From IMG/VR virus record IMGVR_UViG_3300034682_000181, positions 1 to 37,032 of that record: a DNA stretch of 37,032 bases; one strand, given 5' to 3'. The position numbers and the translations under genes are program-made. Source of the DNA: a virus. Within the stretch, counting starts at the first letter, position 1; every line of letters starts with the position of its first letter. Shown in pieces: positions 14,258 through 37,032 of this stretch. The notes below the pieces were generated by a model that saw only the letters and a program-made list of their open reading frames with translations, was not told the origin of the DNA and ran no database searches.

Positions 14258-14881
14258 TTATGTCATTTTTGCGGCCGGTGGCGCGGCTCCGTTGCTGCTG
14301 TGGTTGTGGTTGTTGTAGGTGTCACGCATACTCTGCATCGATGACTTCTTATCGCTGATATCCGCTTCACAGGTCACAGCACCTTTGCTGTGCGTGGTAC
14401 CGTCCACCGTTACGGTTTCAGTCACCTTCACATTGCCGATGATTTCAGTGTCACCTATCAATTTGATGCCGCCCTTGCTGCTGACTTCGGTTGTTCCATC
14501 GTCGGGCAGCTGGGCAATCAGTTTCTTTTCAACGCGCTGATAGCTGATAAATGCGCCTTCATCGAACTGCAGCATGAACAAATCAGGATCCGCACTCGGT
14601 GCCGGGTATTCGTTCTGGTAACTCGAAGGGAATATTTCGCCCAGGGACAAATCACCAGGTGAAATGACCGTCACGGCTTCGCCCACTTCCAGCGGCCACC
14701 AGATGATCGCTTTGCCGGCGCGTAACGGCTTCCACTTCAGCCAGCCTGTAACCTGGTCTTTACCGTAGCGAACCCGGGCGCGCTGATTGGCAAAGTCGAT
14801 TTCTTCAACTTTGCCGCGCACGACCAGCTGGGCCAGCTGACGTTCAAGCGCTTCAAGGCGCTGGTTTACCGATAAACTCAT
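14258..14881 (-). CDS. V: Baseplate spike gpV
   Basis: 207 residues: an OB-like domain (VRGKVEEIDFANQRARVRYG), followed by VTVISPGDLSLGEIFPSSYQ and a beta-helical C terminus with repeated V/T residues (VKVTETVTVDGTTHSKGAV). Ends in a His-rich NNHNHSSNGA segment typical of metal-binding spike tips. It forms the membrane-piercing spike. Confidence 0.93.
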   Translation of the reverse strand: MSLSVNQRLEALERQLAQLVVRGKVEEIDFANQRARVRYGKDQVTGWLKWKPLRAGKAIIWWPLEVGEAVTVISPGDLSLGEIFPSSYQNEYPAPSADPDLFMLQFDEGAFISYQRVEKKLIAQLPDDGTTEVSSKGGIKLIGDTEIIGNVKVTETVTVDGTTHSKGAVTCEADISDKKSSMQSMRDTYNNHNHSSNGAAPPAAKMT

Positions 14882-27930: not shown

Positions 27931-28110
27931 CTATTTCCCCCGCTGGCCTTTATCGGTAATGCGTTGCTGCACTTCCTTTCTGTGAACAGGGATAGTTGCC
28001 GGCGCATCCACGCCCACTTTCACCTGATTACCATGAACCCCTAAAACCTTCACTTCGATGTCACCATCGATGATCACGCTTTCCCCTATTTTTCGAGTAA
28101 GTATCAACAT
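27931..28110 (-). CDS. csrA: CsrA/RsmA-family post-transcriptional regulator encoded by the phage
   Basis: 59 residues, starting [17 protein letters not shown], then [20 protein letters not shown] and [12 protein letters not shown]. This follows the CsrA family almost position by position (E. coli: MLILTRRVGE, VLGVKGNQVRIGV, VHREEIYQRI). The key RNA-binding Arg of the VHR motif (R44) is present. CsrA dimers bind GGA motifs in hairpins near ribosome binding sites and change translation or stability. Here it could reprogramme host metabolism or time phage genes. It ends 2 bp before the methylase start. Very secure family call. Confidence 0.95.
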
Positions 28111-29137: not shown

Positions 29138-29388
29138 GCAGCGGCCCTTTTTGTTTTTTCGTACCTTTGTACAAATGTACAAATGTTTGTTTGTGCGGAT
29201 AACTCAGCAGCGCTGCCAGGCTCTGGCACGTATTTAACCCGGCCCTTGGTTCTGGCTTCGATTTCATAGCCCCAACCCCGTGGCACATACTCCGGCCATT
29301 GGTAAATGGCCTGCGGTGTTATGCCCAGGATATTGGCCAGCAAACTGGCATTGCCGCCGAAAATTTCGATTAGTTGAGCTGTTTTCAT
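29134..29388 (-). CDS. cro: Cro-like repressor (YdaS/Cro type HTH)
   Basis: 84 residues. MKTAQLIEIFGGNASLLANI then LGITPQAIYQW form an HTH (recognition helix PQAIYQWPE) typical for Cro/YdaS proteins, followed by the usual VPRGWGYEIEARTKGRV. Divergent from the cI-like gene across 105 bp containing palindromes. The last codons (TNICTFVQR) are made of the TTTGTACA octamers of array 3, so the array lies inside this gene. No Shine-Dalgarno is visible upstream of the ATG; a palindromic operator lies eight bases before it. Confidence 0.85.
   Translation of the reverse strand: MKTAQLIEIFGGNASLLANILGITPQAIYQWPEYVPRGWGYEIEARTKGRVKYVPEPGSAAELSAQTNICTFVQRYEKTKRAAA
29160..29191 (-). repeat. Octamer array 3, within cro 3' end upstream of Q
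   Basis: TGTACAAA at 29168-29175 and 29176-29183 on the + strand, with degenerate octamers on both sides (CGTACCTT, TGTTTGTT). On the minus strand the TTTGTACA repeats read into Q, whose start is at 29137, 31 bp downstream. Confidence 0.7.
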
Positions 29389-29396
29389 AGCAATTG

Positions 29397-29416
29397 AGTG
29401 TAAATATATTTACACT
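29397..29416. promoter_or_regulatory. cro/cI operator O1, 20-bp perfect palindrome
   Basis: AGTGTAAATATATTTACACT is perfectly self-complementary and the symmetry extends with CAAT/ATTG four bases farther out on both sides. It lies 8 bp from the cro start. It also contains TATATT on the minus strand, a possible -10 for cro. Confidence 0.8.
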
Positions 29417-29441
29417 TCATTGCAAAGGATTTCGACAAAGA

Positions 29442-29493: not shown

Positions 29494-30162
29494 ATGATTG
29501 ATTACTCAAAACTTACGAGAGGGGAACGGATAAAGCTTAGGCGTGATGCCTGCAAGCTGTCCCCGGGGTATATAGCGAAGTTCATTGGCGTCAGCCGGGT
29601 AACATATCTGTACTGGGAAGATGGGAAGGTCAATGATATTGCCTGGCCTAAGTTTGAAAAGCTGGCTGAAGTGCTACTTACAACCACGCACTGGCTGGAA
29701 TACGGCAAGGCCAATGAGCTTTATGTGTGCAATGACATTGACGGCGAGATCACGCAGTCACTGGAAGGCGTGCATATCATTAAATCCAATAGTATTCCGG
29801 TGCTTGGCACGCTGGACAAACTGATCGACAAAAGCAAGCATACTGAAGTGGTTGACCTGCCGGCGAAGAACAGTGAGATATTCGCGCTTCGCCTGCCTAA
29901 AGCCAGCTCTATGTGCCGCGCTCATGCGGGGGATGCCATCATATTGGATCCGAACTGTGAGCTGTTGCCAGGGGAAGAAGTGTTTTTGCGGTTCATTAAA
30001 GACAAAACGCCAGGCGTATTGTGTACCTTCAACTATCAGAAAGATGGTCAAGTGCATTGTACTACTGAAGAAGGTAAGGCTATATTTGACTGCGCAGACA
30101 TATACAGAATTTACGCAGTTATTGCGGTAGCCCGTAACGGACACATAAAAAATAAACGATGA
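29494..30162 (+). CDS. cI: CI-like prophage repressor (HTH + S24-like domain)
   Basis: 222 residues. The N-terminal HTH (GERIKLRRDACKLSPGYIAK then GVSRVTYLYWEDGK, residues 10-45) is followed by a linker and an S24/LexA-like C-terminal domain from about residue 100. The Ser of the catalytic pair aligns with KASSM (S139), followed by GDAIILDP and LLPGEEV as in CI. The Lys of the pair seems replaced (TFNYQ; N180 aligns with the expected Lys). The usual Ala-Gly or Cys-Gly cleavage site is absent in the linker (VLGTLDKL instead). This suggests a repressor that is not cleaved by RecA. It is divergent from cro and probably maintains lysogeny. Confidence 0.85.
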   Translation: MIDYSKLTRGERIKLRRDACKLSPGYIAKFIGVSRVTYLYWEDGKVNDIAWPKFEKLAEVLLTTTHWLEYGKANELYVCNDIDGEITQSLEGVHIIKSNSIPVLGTLDKLIDKSKHTEVVDLPAKNSEIFALRLPKASSMCRAHAGDAIILDPNCELLPGEEVFLRFIKDKTPGVLCTFNYQKDGQVHCTTEEGKAIFDCADIYRIYAVIAVARNGHIKNKR

Positions 30163-30183
30163 TCGACATTGATCCTTGTCGAT
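30162..30183. promoter_or_regulatory. Inverted repeat after cI
   Basis: ATCGACA-8 nt-TGTCGAT, starting at the cI stop codon. It could be an operator for rep control or a weak terminator; no T-run follows. Confidence 0.4.
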
Positions 30184-30226
30184 ATGTTTACATTGAGATA
30201 GTATTGCTCAGCGAGGGAAAGAAATG

Positions 30227-30255
30227 CCCCCGGTAAACTGCAAATTTACCGAGGG
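30227..30255 (+). other. Strong hairpin in the cI-repA interval
   Basis: CCC-C-CGGTAAA pairs with TTTACCG-A-GGG (one mismatch) around a 7-base loop. Without a following T-run it is not a classic terminator. Could be a structured RNA, part of rep regulation, or a factor-dependent stop for cI. Confidence 0.55.
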
Positions 30256-30350
30256 AGTTTGAAAGGTCAGTGCTTCGGCTTTGAACTTGAAAACATAAGT
30301 TTGGCGGCTTACGCATTTCAGCACCGAGCAAAAGCAGTTAACGATTGAGT

Positions 30351-30356
30351 TATAAT
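30351..30356 (+). promoter_or_regulatory. Candidate repA -10 box
   Basis: Perfect TATAAT, 141 bp before repA. No good -35 is found at 17 bp (GCAAAA), so the promoter would need activation, or the match is chance. The structured element at 30354-30406 starts inside it. Confidence 0.4.
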
Positions 30357-30406
30357 GACACTTCAAAATCTACCAAAAGGTAGGCCCGTGCAAGGCAAGT
30401 GTCATT
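30354..30406. ncRNA. Three-way-junction element upstream of repA (candidate control RNA or cruciform)
   Basis: AATGACACTT (30354-30363) and AAGTGTCATT (30397-30406) form a perfect 10-bp outer stem. Inside is CTACC-aaaa-GGTAG (30370-30383) and a short GCC/GGC stem (30384-30396). Could be a replication-control RNA, leader, or a protein-binding cruciform; no family recognised. Confidence 0.4.
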
Positions 30407-30441
30407 GTAGCCCAATCATGAATAAAAACAACATTAGTGTT

Positions 30442-30473
30442 TTTGTGCATACGTACATTTGTACATTTGTACA
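30442..30473 (+). repeat. Octamer array 4, upstream of repA
   Basis: TTTGTGCA, TACGTACA, TTTGTACA, TTTGTACA in tandem on the + strand, two perfect. The array ends 23 bp before the repA start codon. Same orientation relative to its gene as in the parA, terS and Q arrays. Confidence 0.75.
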
Positions 30474-30496
30474 AATTCAAACTGATTGGGGCTTGA

Positions 30497-33400
30497 ATGA
30501 GCTATTCCAGAACTATGGGGCTGGATCTGACCAGCGCACTTGATGCGTTAAGTCATATCAGCGCTAACATCGATTATAAAGACTGGTCGAACATCGGCCG
30601 GGCGCTTGCTTCAGAATTTGGCGACGATGCCAGAGACGGCTTTGAAAGCTGGTCTGAAGGGGGCGATTCGTACAACTCCCGTGAATTCAATGCGCAGTGG
30701 AATTCCTTTAAGCGCACCAAGAAAGTTAATATTTCAACGCTGATTTACCACGCGAAGCAAGCGGGCTGGTCGCCTGAAAAATCAGAACCCCTGTCTGACA
30801 TTGAAAAGCAGCGCCTGAAGAATGAACGGGCTGAACGCCGTAAAGTGCGTGAGCAAAAAGCAGAACGCGCAGCGCACCGCAAGAACCGCCGTTCAGCGGC
30901 GTTTTACAGCAGCCTGCCGGCACTGGCAAAGCACAAGAACCCATCACCGTATCAGGTGGATAAGCACTTAGAAGATGCGCAGCGCTTCAGTGAATTCAAA
31001 GAGTACCATTCAACTAACGGCCGCCGTAAAAAGCACCTGCTGGTTATCCCGCTAAGGGATATCGAAGGCAACTGGCGCGGGGCTGAATTGATACACGCCT
31101 GGCGTAAGACCCGAAACCAGAAAACGGGCAAATTACGCCACTTCAGACGGACAATGACAGGAACCGAGCCAGCGCTCGGTTTTCACGTTTTCCCGAACCA
31201 TGACGCCCTGAAAACAGCGAAGCGGGTTTTTATTACGGAAGGCTGGGCCGATGGCGTATGGGCGCATAAGGCCAGCGGCGAAGTAACCGCTTATGTGATC
31301 GGTAGTCATAATGTCCCGACGATAGCCGGCATCATCCAGCAGGCTTACCCTGACTGCCAGGTGATCACTGCGGCCGATAATGACAAAGCCGGTAAAGCGG
31401 CCACAACCGCCCACGGCGGTTACTGGACAATGCCACTGGCACAAAATGACTGGTCAGACGTAGCGGCACAGGAAGGGGCTGATTCACTGAAAGCCCAGCT
31501 GCTGAATATCCGTGGCTTTCAGAAATGCCTGGTTAACGAGCGTTATCTGGGCAACGCCACTGGCGCCAAAATTCGCCCGGGCCTGAATCTGGTGAAGTCA
31601 GCCAAAGAAACCGGCAAATCTAGCTGGATCATCGAGTTTATGAACAACAACCTGAACCTGTCGGTTCTGGTTATCAGCTACCGTAAGAACCTGGTTAATC
31701 AGCTGGCACAAAAAGCCGGCGTCGATTACTACGAAGATTTAATTAACGTTGACCGCTTCGGCAACTTCAGCAACGTTGAGCTGAGAAAATCCAGCCGCCT
31801 GGCGATTTCTCCGGACAGCCTTTACAAGCTGATCGAAAAAGGCACCGTGCGCCCTTATGACGTGGTTTTTGTCGATGAATGCGATCAAACGCTGATGCAC
31901 TATGACGCTGACACGATGAAGAACAAAGAAAAGAACTTTGGCGTTATGTCATGGCTGCTGAAGCACAGCCAGTACCAGGTGCTGGCCGATGCGGATTTAA
32001 GCGATCTGACCATTGAATACTGCAATGACATTGGCCTGAACCGTGGCCAGTTCATCATTAACGAGTTCAAGCCGCGCCAGGGCTCAGATATGTTCCTGTA
32101 CCACCACAACATGCACTTACGGGATGCGTTGTTACGGCGGGCCGCTGTTGAGCCAATTTTCTACTGCAGCAACTCAAAAGAACGGGTGTTAGAGGTTGAA
32201 CGCTTATTACAGGCCGCTGGTATCAATGAAACCAAAATACAGGCGATACACTCGGGCAACTCCGGTACCGCTGAAATTCAGCAGTTTATTGTTGATATCA
32301 ACAACCAGGTAAACCGTCTGCATGTGCTGCTGGCCAGTCCGTCGATGGGTACCGGCGTTTCTATCGATGAAGGCCACCCATTCAAAGCGGTATTTGCTGA
32401 GTTCAGCCACCGCACCGGCACCGCTGAGCAAGCGCATCAGCAAATGGCCCGTACCCGGGCTGTGACTGAATACCATGTTTTTGTTGATCCGACCTTCCAC
32501 AACTTTGAAACGAACCCGGACGAACTGCGCCGCGTGATGCTCGATAAACCCGAGCTGGACAGCGAACACCTATTCACCTTCGATATTCACCAGGGCGAAA
32601 TGGTGGCCAGAAACCCAGAGTTTGAAGCCCTGCACTGCCGGATCCGCGCCTTCCGTAACCTGAACCGCAATTGCTTTGCTGAGCGCTTTATCCAGCAGGC
32701 CGAAGCGGAAGGCTACGCCATTCAGAAAGTAGCTTTTAACGAAGATGCGGCTGAAGTGCTGAAGGATAAAACAGACCTGATCCGCGAAGAACTGACGGCA
32801 GAACTGCGCGAACGCATCTACGACGATGAACAGCACCCGATCCTGAGCGACGATGATTTCAAAGCGGCCGAACTGGGCAGCATCAGCGTCAGCGAAGAAA
32901 GCCGACTGAAAACGAAGGTGATGAAAAGCCTGGCGCTGGCTGACTATCTGCGGTACCCGAGCCTGGTTAAACCTGAAGTTATACATGACATGGTAAAACG
33001 CCTGGCATTTATGGAAGCCACTGAAGGCTATGTTAACGGCATCAAAAAGCTGTCTGTTATCGCTCAGCCGGAAAACGTGGCCATCCTGCGCGACATTGAA
33101 GATCGGAAGTTCGCGGAATCCCGCGCCGGCCTGAAACACTTTACCGCCCAGCGCCGGCATGAACTGCGCTTTTTGAAAGCGGTAGGCATTGACGAAAACC
33201 TGAACTTTAACGGCAAGGTGTGGCAGAGCAAAGAAGTGGCCAATGCCATGCGCCAGTACCTGAAGAAGCACAAGGACGAAATACAGGCGTATTCAGGTTC
33301 CACTATCACAGCCAAAACACTGAAAGACCCTATCAGATGGTTCTGCGACCACCTGAAGGCCATGAACGTGCCGCTGGTGGCCTTCCAGCGCCGTGTGAGC

Positions 33401-34069
33401 GGCAAACAGGTATGGTTCAGAACTGTGGATGAACAGCAGTGGAAAATGGTTACGCGCCTGGTTAAATCCCGTGTACGCGGCCTGACTGCCTACTACGCCG
33501 AAAAAGGTGAAGAACTGGGCAAAATCACTGTGCAAAAACCTGTGGTTCAGCAGGTCGAAACCGTCACAGAAACTGTCACACAGAACGCGCTTGTTTATAA
33601 TAATACTGACGGTTCCCATGTGACAGCTAAATCGCCCGCTAACCTATACGTGGCGAGGCTTAAAGCTGATCCTGAAGGACAGGGGAAAACAACGATCCCC
33701 CCGGCTGAATTGAACAACAACGATCTGGCTGTTTCACCGTTTGAAAAATTCATTGATTCTGTCAGCGAACCGTCAAGCACTCAGCGGGAACGGTTAAAGC
33801 TGGCTGAAGTGTTCCCAGCGGCCCACAAAGCGAAATACAACGCCGGGCTAATGTCAGACAAGGATCTACGCAGTTGGATTGAATATGGCGCTTCTGGCGC
33901 GTTCAGAACGGCAGTGTTTAACGTGGCCAGTGCAGTTAAGCATCTAATGCCAGGCTGCAGCAATTTGGTTGATGAAGTTATGGGCCGGTTTACGGCAGAA
34001 CATGCCAGGGAATTTTGTAAGGGGGCGTTATCGGTCAGCGACCTGGTGGCGGTAATAAGGAACGGCTGA
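30497..34069 (+). CDS. repA: RepA-like multidomain replication protein (primase/helicase)
   Basis: 1190 residues, the type of single-protein replicase of N15 RepA (1324). Residues about 14-92 resemble a primase C-terminal (PriCT) domain. A Toprim domain follows around 243-300 (VFITEGWADGVW with E248; TAADNDKAGKAA with D294 and D296). An SF2-type helicase follows: Walker A-like VKSAKETGKSS (about 366-376), Walker B VVFVDECDQT (about 456-465) and the later helicase motifs HSGNSGTAEI and ASPSMGTGVSID then QQMARTR. The last resembles the origin-binding helicase (UL9-like) group. The C-terminal 450 residues are unassigned. It starts ATG 30497 after TGGGGC. The origin in N15 lies inside repA, so it may also here. 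Confidence 0.9.
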   Translation: MSYSRTMGLDLTSALDALSHISANIDYKDWSNIGRALASEFGDDARDGFESWSEGGDSYNSREFNAQWNSFKRTKKVNISTLIYHAKQAGWSPEKSEPLSDIEKQRLKNERAERRKVREQKAERAAHRKNRRSAAFYSSLPALAKHKNPSPYQVDKHLEDAQRFSEFKEYHSTNGRRKKHLLVIPLRDIEGNWRGAELIHAWRKTRNQKTGKLRHFRRTMTGTEPALGFHVFPNHDALKTAKRVFITEGWADGVWAHKASGEVTAYVIGSHNVPTIAGIIQQAYPDCQVITAADNDKAGKAATTAHGGYWTMPLAQNDWSDVAAQEGADSLKAQLLNIRGFQKCLVNERYLGNATGAKIRPGLNLVKSAKETGKSSWIIEFMNNNLNLSVLVISYRKNLVNQLAQKAGVDYYEDLINVDRFGNFSNVELRKSSRLAISPDSLYKLIEKGTVRPYDVVFVDECDQTLMHYDADTMKNKEKNFGVMSWLLKHSQYQVLADADLSDLTIEYCNDIGLNRGQFIINEFKPRQGSDMFLYHHNMHLRDALLRRAAVEPIFYCSNSKERVLEVERLLQAAGINETKIQAIHSGNSGTAEIQQFIVDINNQVNRLHVLLASPSMGTGVSIDEGHPFKAVFAEFSHRTGTAEQAHQQMARTRAVTEYHVFVDPTFHNFETNPDELRRVMLDKPELDSEHLFTFDIHQGEMVARNPEFEALHCRIRAFRNLNRNCFAERFIQQAEAEGYAIQKVAFNEDAAEVLKDKTDLIREELTAELRERIYDDEQHPILSDDDFKAAELGSISVSEESRLKTKVMKSLALADYLRYPSLVKPEVIHDMVKRLAFMEATEGYVNGIKKLSVIAQPENVAILRDIEDRKFAESRAGLKHFTAQRRHELRFLKAVGIDENLNFNGKVWQSKEVANAMRQYLKKHKDEIQAYSGSTITAKTLKDPIRWFCDHLKAMNVPLVAFQRRVSGKQVWFRTVDEQQWKMVTRLVKSRVRGLTAYYAEKGEELGKITVQKPVVQQVETVTETVTQNALVYNNTDGSHVTAKSPANLYVARLKADPEGQGKTTIPPAELNNNDLAVSPFEKFIDSVSEPSSTQRERLKLAEVFPAAHKAKYNAGLMSDKDLRSWIEYGASGAFRTAVFNVASAVKHLMPGCSNLVDEVMGRFTAEHAREFCKGALSVSDLVAVIRNG

Positions 34070-34091: not shown

Positions 34092-34340
34092 TTAACGGCG
34101 TAGTTTATCGAGTAAAGCCACAATGCCAGTAACCTGTTCTTTAAGGCCCAGGTAAAAACCAGCATGGCCGTCACTGGCCGCATCCATAGCGAAAGCCAAT
34201 GAACCGTCTAAAATATCAGCCTTAGCTTCGATTTCATCCAGTATGGCCAACTTCCTTGATTCAGCCGAAGCAAGTATATCTTGCTCCACTTCCGTTAACA
34301 TTGCCTGTCCGTGATCTTGGTGTTTTGCGGTGTTACTCAT
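34092..34340 (-). CDS. Hypothetical acidic protein
   Basis: 82 residues, helical; starts MSNTAKHQDHGQAM, then LTEVEQDILASAESRKLAI. Ends VTGIVALLDKLRR. No recognised family. It lies behind repA in opposite orientation, downstream of the membrane protein gene, and may be the last gene of the transcript starting near 35100. Confidence 0.6.
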   Translation of the reverse strand: MSNTAKHQDHGQAMLTEVEQDILASAESRKLAILDEIEAKADILDGSLAFAMDAASDGHAGFYLGLKEQVTGIVALLDKLRR

Positions 34341-34360
34341 TTTTCTGTCCTTACAGCTAA

Positions 34361-34882
34361 TTATTCAATTAGCCCTTTCTCTTTTAGCCTTTTAACTGCC
34401 TGAATCGTTTGGTTCGTCAGGTACGTTAAAATCAGAGCTTCCACGCCAAGCAACGCCCGCTTAACCGGTGTGTAATAGTCGTAAAAGTGATGGCCTTCTA
34501 ATCCCAGCGCATAGTGCCAGAACCGGAAAAAATCACCAAACACACTAAGGTTATAAGCGATAGATAAAGCGAAAACGGCGATTAACGCTTTTTCTATTTT
34601 AAGGGGCCGGTACATTGAATGCGGCACCAGCATTGCAGACACTATGAACCGAAAGCGGATCAGCAGAATCATCAGCAAATCATTCAGGCTGTGGGCAACA
34701 TAGAACCATGCCCGGTACTCTGACGACTTCAGCGGCTGCAATGCCGGCGTTAACAAAAACATATCAACTGCTTTGGGGATTAGCATCACAATAAGCAGCG
34801 CCCCTAGGTTTGCGTTCCTTCTGGCGAGGTAAGCCAAGAAGGCAGTCCATGCAATGAAACTATAATTAATGTATATTTCCAC
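34361..34882 (-). CDS. Multi-pass membrane protein, unknown function
   Basis: 173 residues with about four to five hydrophobic helices (YSFIAWTAFLAYLA, GALLIVMLIPKAVDMFLL, ALIAVFALSIAYNL and others). The start MEIYINYSF is preceded by a weak site. It may belong to the conserved unknown membrane proteins near rep genes in plasmid-prophages; an exclusion function is possible but unproven. Confidence 0.6.
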   Translation of the reverse strand: MEIYINYSFIAWTAFLAYLARRNANLGALLIVMLIPKAVDMFLLTPALQPLKSSEYRAWFYVAHSLNDLLMILLIRFRFIVSAMLVPHSMYRPLKIEKALIAVFALSIAYNLSVFGDFFRFWHYALGLEGHHFYDYYTPVKRALLGVEALILTYLTNQTIQAVKRLKEKGLIE

Positions 34883-35244: not shown

Positions 35245-36864
35245 CTAAGCGCCAGCTTTCTTAATATCGTCTTTGTGTTTGGAAAATTTGGCATAAGCCT
35301 TTTGCATGGCATCGGCCATGCTGGCCGCTTTACCTTCCCAGGTGTGCGTTTTTTCGCCCAGCTTCATCAGTACCTTCCAAACCCCATCCCGAACCGGAAG
35401 CGCTTTGAATGATGGTTTTACTGGTGCCGGTGTGGCTTCCACCTGTTTAATTTCAACCGCGGGGGCTTGCTCTGGGGCTTCACCATTCAGGGCATCGTCA
35501 GCCAGTGCCAGATAGTCCTTTATTGCGCCGCGGCTGCTGCCCAGTTCGCGGGAAATGCGCGACTGAGTGATCACCGCATTATCATCAGCCTTCAGCTGTT
35601 CCTTCACCCAGGCATGTATTTTTTCCATTGCTTCACGGCGGGCAATTTCGCTGTGGCCATCCAGCTTTTTGATACCGGCCAAACGGGAAACCGCTTTTTC
35701 AGGTGCCGGCGCGGCTTCTTCGTCGTACTCGATATGGAATTTTTTATAGCCAATCTGGGTGTCAGTATCTTCATGGCCCAGCATTTCCTGCCAGAACAAA
35801 TCCTCTGACCGTTTGGTTTTCTTGCGCCACTCTGCATAGTGCAAATCATGCACGGCCCGCGCCCATATATCGCGGCTGTCTTTGAACACAAACGACTGAT
35901 CACCCAGCACCCGCTTGGCCAAGCGGTTAAGGTTCCCAGCACAGCGGCTGTTTATCCTGGCGTTGCGCGTCACTTCCGGCAGTGAATCAAATTCGGCCAG
36001 TTCCTGTATTTCAGGCATGGCCCGCAGCTCTGCCCAGGCATCGACCACCAGCTTGGCGTCAACCAGTGTGTAAATGGTGGCCGCGTCTGAGTAGTCAGCG
36101 CCGCCGCGTTTTTTGGCTTGGCCAGTAAACTTCACCTGGTGATCTGATACCCGTTCAATTTCGCCCTGGTACAGCACTTCAATCTGACGGCGGCCAGTGG
36201 CCAGAGCCAACCCAAGCGCCAGCTGGTTATAATTAAAAACAGATTCACCGCCGCTGACGCGGCTTTTTTTGGTCAGCAGGTCGTAAATGGTCGAGATCAG
36301 CCAGTTGTAGCTGATAGTCACCTGGGTACTGATTTTCTGGTACCGCTTTTCGGCCTGCTCATCTTCCAGATTTTCTTTTGTGGCACTTGGCATGGTCAGG
36401 TGGCGCATTATTTCGTGGTCAAGCTTCATCGCTTTGATATCGGCATGGGCTGCATCGTCGCCGGCTTTCTTCGCTCTGTTCAGGATGGCTGCCCAGGCTT
36501 CCCGTAACGGCGTAATTGATTTACCCAGCAACGCCTGCAGGTCGTCAGCATATTCTGGGTAACGTGCTGCCAGTGTGGCCACCTGCTTATCTAAGCTGTG
36601 GTGAACCCAGTTCTGTTCTGTGACAGCCCGGCGCAACTGTGTCAGGTACTTGCGGTACGTGGAAGGGGCTATTTTGTCAGTTTCCTTACGGCGTTTATCG
36701 TCGTGCAGCTGGTTCTTTATCTTCTCTGCCAGGCGGGTAATGGCTTTCGTTTTCTCTGACCGGGATAGGGATTCATCACCATCTATCACCTTAACGCCGT
36801 CAATTAAATCCTTGGTTATCTGGTGCAGGTCAACTTTACTGCTGCGTTTTGCTGTGTCTGTCAT
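35245..36864 (-). CDS. telN: Protelomerase (telomere resolvase, TelN/TelK family)
   Basis: 539 residues, similar in size to those of VP882-type phages (about 520-540) and shorter than N15 TelN (631). Catalytic residues of the tyrosine recombinase type are visible: R225 in LATGRRQIEVL, a Lys in TGQAKKRGG (251/252), R331 in FKDSRDIWAR, H364 and Y373 in MLGHEDTDTQIGY. The H-to-Y spacing of nine equals that of TelK (416/425). The C terminus has an HTH (ISRELGSSRGAIKDY) and a small domain (about 485-535). It cuts the palindrome formed by the window ends and seals hairpins. It lies next to the right telomere, transcribed away from it. Confidence 0.95.
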   Translation of the reverse strand: MTDTAKRSSKVDLHQITKDLIDGVKVIDGDESLSRSEKTKAITRLAEKIKNQLHDDKRRKETDKIAPSTYRKYLTQLRRAVTEQNWVHHSLDKQVATLAARYPEYADDLQALLGKSITPLREAWAAILNRAKKAGDDAAHADIKAMKLDHEIMRHLTMPSATKENLEDEQAEKRYQKISTQVTISYNWLISTIYDLLTKKSRVSGGESVFNYNQLALGLALATGRRQIEVLYQGEIERVSDHQVKFTGQAKKRGGADYSDAATIYTLVDAKLVVDAWAELRAMPEIQELAEFDSLPEVTRNARINSRCAGNLNRLAKRVLGDQSFVFKDSRDIWARAVHDLHYAEWRKKTKRSEDLFWQEMLGHEDTDTQIGYKKFHIEYDEEAAPAPEKAVSRLAGIKKLDGHSEIARREAMEKIHAWVKEQLKADDNAVITQSRISRELGSSRGAIKDYLALADDALNGEAPEQAPAVEIKQVEATPAPVKPSFKALPVRDGVWKVLMKLGEKTHTWEGKAASMADAMQKAYAKFSKHKDDIKKAGA

Positions 36865-36995
36865 GGCCGTATTCCTTATTTATTTATACATATCTGAGCA
36901 ACTAAGCACTAACTGTACATTATATAATCGTACATAGCAAGGCATTATATACACGTGTACACAGCTAAGCAATACCGCAATACATAACACACCGC
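36865..36995. other. Non-coding right subtelomeric region with protelomerase promoter
   Basis: No gene. It contains TATATAAT-like stretches (TATATAATCG, TTATATAC), the 14-bp direct repeat at 36930-36943 and the telomere-like GTGTACACA at 36955-36963. Position and AT-richness suggest the leftward promoter of the protelomerase, possibly autoregulated by binding to the telomere motifs. Confidence 0.45.
36930..36943 (+). repeat. Subtelomeric 14-bp direct repeat, right copy
   Basis: Perfect copy of GTACATAGCAAGGC from 87-100, in direct orientation, about 100 bp from the right end. It lies between the protelomerase start codon and the telomere arm. Confidence 0.6.
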
Positions 36996-37032
36996 CCCAG
37001 CCTAGCTATGTATACACAATGGTGCTAATGCT
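36996..37032. other. telR: Right telomere arm (other half of protelomerase target site)
   Basis: Blocks CCCAGCC (36996-37002), AGCTATGTATACACA (37004-37018) and GCTAATGCT (37024-37032) are the exact reverse complements of the three left-arm blocks, separated by the same 1- and 5-base spacers. Joining the window's right end to its left end gives a long palindrome centred on TACGTA at positions 1-6. It is one base (an A) short of perfect symmetry at the centre. That base may have been lost in assembly at the hairpin or junction. Confidence 0.85.

Follow-up and report, generated by a model that had tools for sequence, protein, structure and literature searches.

A putative convergent antisense RNA gene and predicted ribosome-binding-site switch between cI and repA of a telomere phage

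The CI RNA of phage P4 and the c4 RNA of phage P1 are encoded on the sense strand and are complementary to the start region of a gene that lies downstream in the same transcript, and N15 serves as the model linear phage-plasmid. In the available text of PMC4997575, copy control of N15 is ascribed to the repressor CB, which in N15 and phiKO2 binds before repA; the copy number is higher when CB is lacking. For the staphylococcal plasmid pSK41, the accessible part of PMC5703833 describes RNAI, an antisense RNA of ∼83 nt that is transcribed against the rep leader, ∼100 nt ahead of the start, and consists of two stem-loops with a 5′ tail. Its binding causes the leader to sequester the ribosome-binding site (RBS), and transcription is not attenuated (PMC5703833, same part). 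A dual layout with both a repressor and an antisense RNA is known for pMV158, according to the same portion of that source (PMC5703833). Our literature search, with partial coverage that leaves room for an earlier description, found no paper on an antisense RNA acting on repA of a telomere phage.

The DNA analysed here (37,032 nucleotides, hereafter the window) is that of a telomere phage, i.e., a linear plasmid prophage. Its two ends (1–45, TACGTATAGCATTAGC, and 36990–37032, GCTAATGCT) are complementary halves of one telomere palindrome, which indicates that the record represents the whole genome cut at the telomere. A protelomerase gene with a match to the ResT/TelK catalytic domain occupies 35245–36864, and its closest counterparts are those of phiHAP-1 and VP882, at ∼47 to 49% identity. 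ParA is encoded at 481–1116, and the remaining recognized genes include a Cro with a P22_Cro match and an antitermination gene Q. The gene for a CI-like repressor (cI, 29494–30162, plus strand) is followed on the same strand by repA (30497–34069), which encodes a large CyRepA1-like initiator with PriCT_2 and Herpes_ori_bp domain matches. The early lytic genes are divergent from cI and repA, an order common to N15, PY54, VP882, phiHAP-1, VHML, and their relatives. Using the window RepA alone as the query retrieved no relative among viral contigs or genome contigs, and a RepA alignment as the query retrieved 21 loci from viral contigs and 4 from genome contigs. In the interval between cI and cro, a 34-bp near-perfect palindrome (29390–29423, core GTGTAAATATATTTACAC) is likely the CI/Cro operator; 13 of the 15 bases of one of its halves reappear at 30351–30365, in the segment designated arm L below. 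The early region of the phage also contains a CsrA-family gene (27931–28110). Two genes without matches fill the interval between repA and the protelomerase gene (34092–34882), the place at which, in the available portion of PMC10432266, other linear plasmid phages are described as having lysis modules of transcription factors and small ORFs.

On the basis of folding models and comparison with related phages, the stretch from 30163 to 30503 is probably a repA leader with a convergent antisense RNA gene and an RBS switch. An earlier note on this DNA had claimed four elements within 30227–30473 (a 10-bp hairpin, a three-way junction with a perfect 10-bp outer stem, a TATAAT box, and an octamer array), and all four were located. 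The hairpin is present at 30227–30255, although its minus-strand stem comprises 13 pairs rather than 10; its folding z-score was lower on the minus strand (−4.81) than on the plus (−3.00). The junction is closed by the perfect 10-bp stem as described (30354–30363 with 30397–30406), and this stem extends to 21 positions (30343–30363 with 30397–30417), 18 of which are Watson-Crick pairs; two of the other three are G-U on the plus strand and one is G-U on the minus strand. Just one further place in the window had arms that paired this well (18 of 21) with a spacing ≤60. The extended region had a folding energy of −33.4 kcal/mol, with z-scores of −7.15 on the plus strand and −6.70 on the minus strand, and none of 200 shuffled sequences folded as well. 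We refer to the plus-strand arms as L (30343–30363), the pre-emptor and predicted antisense target, and R (30397–30418), the partner of either L or the repA start site. Between them lie the inner hairpins of the junction (30370–30396), of which CTACC/GGTAG is firm and GCC/GGC has just 3 bp. The TATAAT box (30351–30356) lies within arm L without a recognizable −35 element and probably does not act as a strong promoter. A candidate sense promoter for repA with a weak consensus was found at 30162–30204 (TTGTCG at 30176–30181, 17-bp spacing, TAGTAT at 30199–30204), overlapped by the dyad ATCGACA..TGTCGAT (30162–30183), and its position matches that of OL/PrepA in N15. The cI-repA interval of the window contained no plus-strand terminator.

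The minus strand of the same interval contains the elements of a short transcription unit. A predicted promoter (30404–30431) consists of a −35 element TTGTTT (30426–30431), a 16-bp spacer, and a −10 element TACAAT (30404–30409) that falls inside arm R and was absent from the earlier note. This promoter scored 8.7 bits, the second best on the minus strand, and 30 of 60 shuffled leaders contained one as good. The hairpin at 30227–30255, with the tail CATTTCTTTC, is terminator-like on the minus strand only and is predicted to be the intrinsic terminator of the antisense RNA; its tail is T-rich only to a moderate degree, and the total of terminator-like sites in the region was 2, compared to 1.9 in shuffles. 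No minus-strand gene that would need a terminator at 30255–30227 is present, and the equivalent place in related phages also holds terminators. From the positions of the −10 element and the terminator, the predicted antisense RNA would run leftward from 30397 to 30218, with a length of ∼175 to 180 nt, about twice that of the corresponding units of the relatives.

We assembled 40 cI-to-repA leaders from phages, plasmids, and IMG/VR and GTDB contigs, and removal of four exact duplicates (VHML, L032, L039, and L046) left 36 leaders in 18 sequence clusters. Five loci (L035, L040, L042, L043, and L045) were left out, Kpn74 was excluded for having no leader at the annotated place, and 48ST307 was used in the N15-group alignment only. 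The pattern TTGC-N19-TANANT occurred on the minus strand of 32 of the 36 leaders and on the plus strand of one, whereas dinucleotide shuffles averaged 0.42 and never exceeded 3; this shuffle figure is not a probability because the pattern was written after inspection and the leaders are related. The four leaders lacking the pattern each possess a promoter-like variant: TTGTTT-16-TACAAT in the window, where it takes the position that the pattern has in the 32 others, TTGAAA-17-CACAAT in N15, TTGCGC-18-TACAAT in PY54, and TTGAAC-17-TATACT in phiHAP-1. When scored leader by leader, the promoters were no better than shuffles in most phages; only the conserved position and pattern exceeded them. 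In 22 loci, an antisense unit of 69 to 99 nt extends leftward from the −10 element to a hairpin followed by a U-run. Covariation in related phages, a check that the earlier note had proposed, was found in their antisense terminator hairpin, where both sides had changed in 9 of 11 pairs (alignment A2). The sense L/R stem of 16 Vibrio-type leaders, which are related sequences, contained 12 G-U cells versus 3 A-C cells on the plus strand, and this retention of G-U pairs favors a sense leader that acts as a structured RNA. The antisense layout recurs in telomere phages of Vibrio, Aeromonas, Yersinia, Klebsiella, and Escherichia coli. Despite changes in the stem, the terminator loop CGCCACA is near-invariant from Yersinia to Aeromonas and Vibrio phages (A2 loci, L016, and L053).

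A covariance model of the antisense unit, R1, was built from the 22 loci. Outside this training set it matched PY54 (E = 2.8e-7), P840 (1.8e-6), and further Aeromonas loci (∼1e-7), the Aeromonas matches being near copies of training members, and it matched N15-type phages only above an E value of 1. The window was not among the R1 matches at E values up to 10; thus, it shares the architecture of these loci and not a demonstrable sequence descent of the RNA. A search of Rfam yielded no matching family. The Rfam C4 model in particular gave no match at its gathering score in the window, nor at E values up to 5 within 30150–30560. Several Vibrio telomere phages (L009–L012, L017, and L028–L048) contain a sense reading frame of 55 to 80 codons (YVVDLKE..KKAGCGDRLF..) across the antisense gene, located in the cI-repA interval at about −270 to −60 from repA and in some cases annotated as a hypothetical protein. 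It is possibly a leader peptide. A mechanism that relies on such a peptide was dropped, as the frame is broken in several relatives and absent from the window.

Within the N15 group (N15, phiKO2, 48ST307, and R46_1), the stretch comprising the promoter and arm R is near letter-identical, as is the terminator, and the sequence between them is rearranged. This variable stretch corresponds to the head of the predicted antisense RNA, and invariant ends flanking a variable middle are, at the level of sequence, the pattern of antisense specificity determinants. The database records of N15 and phiKO2 annotate a terminator at the place of the predicted antisense terminator, described for phiKO2 as "putative bidirectional", and the N15 record places CB operators directly after cB.

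We calculated the free-energy cost of opening the repA RBS and AUG (−13 to +3), both for the full leader and for a leader that lacked the part covered by the antisense RNA but kept R; phiHAP-1 was excluded from the energy tests on account of its annotated start, which reads CTG. For the window, the cost was 7.9 kcal/mol for the full leader, 15.4 kcal/mol with L removed, and 7.4 kcal/mol with both L and R removed. The corresponding values were 6.8, 16.0, and 6.4 kcal/mol for Aeromonas phage phiARM81ld; 4.0, 8.6, and 3.6 kcal/mol for N15; and 4.3, 10.9, and 4.3 kcal/mol for PY54. Removal of L raised the cost in 20 of 20 phages (17 of 17, plus three more). A rise as large as that observed was given by no more than 2 of 60 dinucleotide-shuffled leaders in 14 of the 17 phages, and by none of 60 in the window; the test failed for MAR (22/60) and was weak for L029 (4/60) and L031 (7/60). 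When the L side alone was shuffled, no more than 3 of 60 shuffles did so in 14 of 17 phages; the rest were MAR (51), L029 (9), and L033 (6). When R was removed too, the cost in 14 of 20 phages fell to that of the full leader (to within 1 kcal/mol) or below it. The remaining six, all Vibrio phages, kept a cost >1 kcal/mol above that of the full leader even without R, which indicates that other stems contribute there. The same treatment of 34 gene starts in the window gave a mean change of −0.04, with a largest value of 7.5 and a next-largest of 4.0; from the equal value, we infer that the 7.5 belongs to repA, which would place it at the top of the 34.

These calculations bear on an alternative in which the antisense RNA causes early termination or decay of the repA mRNA without sequestration of the RBS. 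The U-run that follows the first hairpin on the sense strand is also fair in several relatives (K242 and Valp1 among the matches listed), and MAR, which has no RBS switch, could be accommodated in this way; however, the window possesses no plus-strand terminator between cI and repA, and most phages show a strong RBS switch. We consider this alternative unlikely.

The RBS switch has a plausible partner at the repA start itself, where a third copy of the arm, T (30483–30503, plus strand), spans the RBS GGGG (30488–30491) and the ATG (30497). The earlier note did not mention this copy. The sequences of T, TGATTGGGGCTTGAATGAGCT, of L, GATTGAGTTATAATGACACTT, and of the complement of R, TGATTGGGCTACAATGACACTT, are three copies of one arm, and R is therefore complementary to L and also to the RBS and AUG of repA. 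The R/T duplex of the window has a predicted energy of −21.6 kcal/mol (p = 0.002 versus shuffled T), and in a similar test of R against the start, 35 of 2114 other 70-base pieces of the window were at least as good. A lenient search for complementarity between the leader and the repA start returned loose, wandering alignments in which the window did not stand out (46/100 and 150/200 shuffles). Only tests restricted to arm R yielded a signal (4/500 and p = 0.002), so the R/T signal partly depends on singling out R. The duplex was not significant in MAR, K242, HY01, VP882, L031, or L033, and R/T pairing as a universal rule was rejected, as permuting R against T across 17 phages gave 1498 of 20000.

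Complementarity between R and the start codon region also speaks for a sense RNA of the P4 CI/P1 c4 type, which was our first idea. A piece of the leader containing L and R would be excised, and its R arm would target, in trans, the repA start carried by other transcripts, with no need for an antisense gene. The P4 CI and P1 c4 RNAs resemble this locus in being complementary to a downstream gene start, and L, R, and T follow the A-B-C order of P4 seqA-seqB-seqC. Such a scheme would leave the conserved minus-strand promoter and terminator without a role, however, and, in contrast to those RNAs, the locus matched no Rfam family, C4 included. It was demoted to a rival when the minus-strand promoter and terminator were recognized, and we now regard it as improbable.

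Under the convergent antisense reading, RNA polymerase would start leftward at ∼30397, from the promoter whose −10 element lies in arm R, and would pass through the inner hairpins, arm L, and the upstream leader, copying them in antisense, before stopping at the hairpin at 30255–30227. In the sense leader, L and R would pair once both had been made, and the repA RBS and AUG would remain open. At high copy number, abundant antisense RNA would occupy L and the inner loops. Most of R would stay free of the antisense RNA because that RNA begins inside R, and the freed arm would pair with T, covering the RBS and AUG and stopping RepA translation. Transcriptional control by the CI repressor may come on top of this, as with CB in N15. 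Control of copy number by an antisense or leader RNA, part of what the earlier note had suggested, finds good support in the comparison of telomere phages and the two-state folding.

By analogy, the closest known mechanism appears to be that of pSK41 RNAI, since here too the antisense RNA is predicted to remove a pre-emptor (L) and allow another segment (R) to close the start site, as the available text of PMC5703833 describes for pSK41. Sequestration of the RBS upon occupation of the antisense target, as in pSK41, was observed for the window by computation. The initiator of the Gram-positive theta plasmid belongs to RepA_N, whereas that of the window is PriCT_2/CyRepA1-like and not RepA_N; because the initiator families differ, the likeness is one of working and not of membership. 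Also unlike pSK41, arm R carries the antisense −10 element, the unit lies downstream of a phage cI, and the RNA would be ∼175 nt. For pT181, the accessible part of PMC5703833 likewise describes RNAI as removing a pre-emptor, after which a stem that includes the RBS can form downstream, but that stem is chiefly a transcription terminator, whereas no U-run follows the R/T stem here. The N15/phiKO2 CB-repA system, as presented in the available text of PMC4997575, resembles the window in the succession of cI and repA with operators and a terminator between them; it differs in that protein control is what that text describes, and the RNA layer is our proposed addition, N15 included. The broader proposition seems to us evenly poised: that telomere phages, N15 among them, possess a hitherto undescribed antisense RNA, with the promoter of that RNA serving as one arm of its target's pre-emptor stem; that release of this arm onto the RBS switches repA translation alongside CI; and that a single 330-bp region is common to copy number, incompatibility, and the lysogeny switch. 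If true, it would provide a testable basis for copy number, compatibility, and re-infection of lysogens in telomere phages of E. coli, Klebsiella, Yersinia, Aeromonas, and Vibrio, and the pSK41 switch would have a counterpart among phages of Gram-negative bacteria.

The inverted repeat and the octamers could instead be protein sites on the DNA (operators, iterons, or partition sites), with the RNA structure as a by-product. The octamer arrays are real and recurrent, and CB operators precede repA in N15 and phiKO2, as stated in the available portion of PMC4997575. Against this explanation, the differences between the arms keep RNA pairs, two of the three being G-U on the plus strand, and other phages possess the same architecture in unrelated sequences, with freely varying stem spacing and loop; we judge it very improbable. 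That the structure arose by chance and is functionless in the window phage is hardly credible, for although the window promoter by itself scored at the level of shuffles, the stem region had a z-score of −7.15, the stem was among the two best in 37 kb, and none of 60 shuffles reproduced the two-state result.

The octamer array before repA is present as the earlier note had reported, with GTAC at 30453, 30461, and 30469 within an array at 30449–30476, between R and the repA start. Across the window, GTAC-N4-GTAC occurred at 8 places, compared to 0.62 (maximum of 3) in 50 shuffles, and period-8 arrays are also found at the parA promoter (394–425) and the cro/Q boundary (29161–29184). The suggestion of iteron-like sites found no support, as the repeats are not confined to the origin; because the same arrays precede parA and sit at cro/Q, they point to partition rather than to iterons. 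The arrays, including that before repA, are likely sites of the partition system, probably that of the 107-aa protein encoded after ParA (1113–1436). N15 is known to have dispersed partition sites. The octamer motif was also seen around repA and elsewhere in phiHAP-1, and GTAC arrays of period 8 were present in L013 at 14858–14881 and at three other places.
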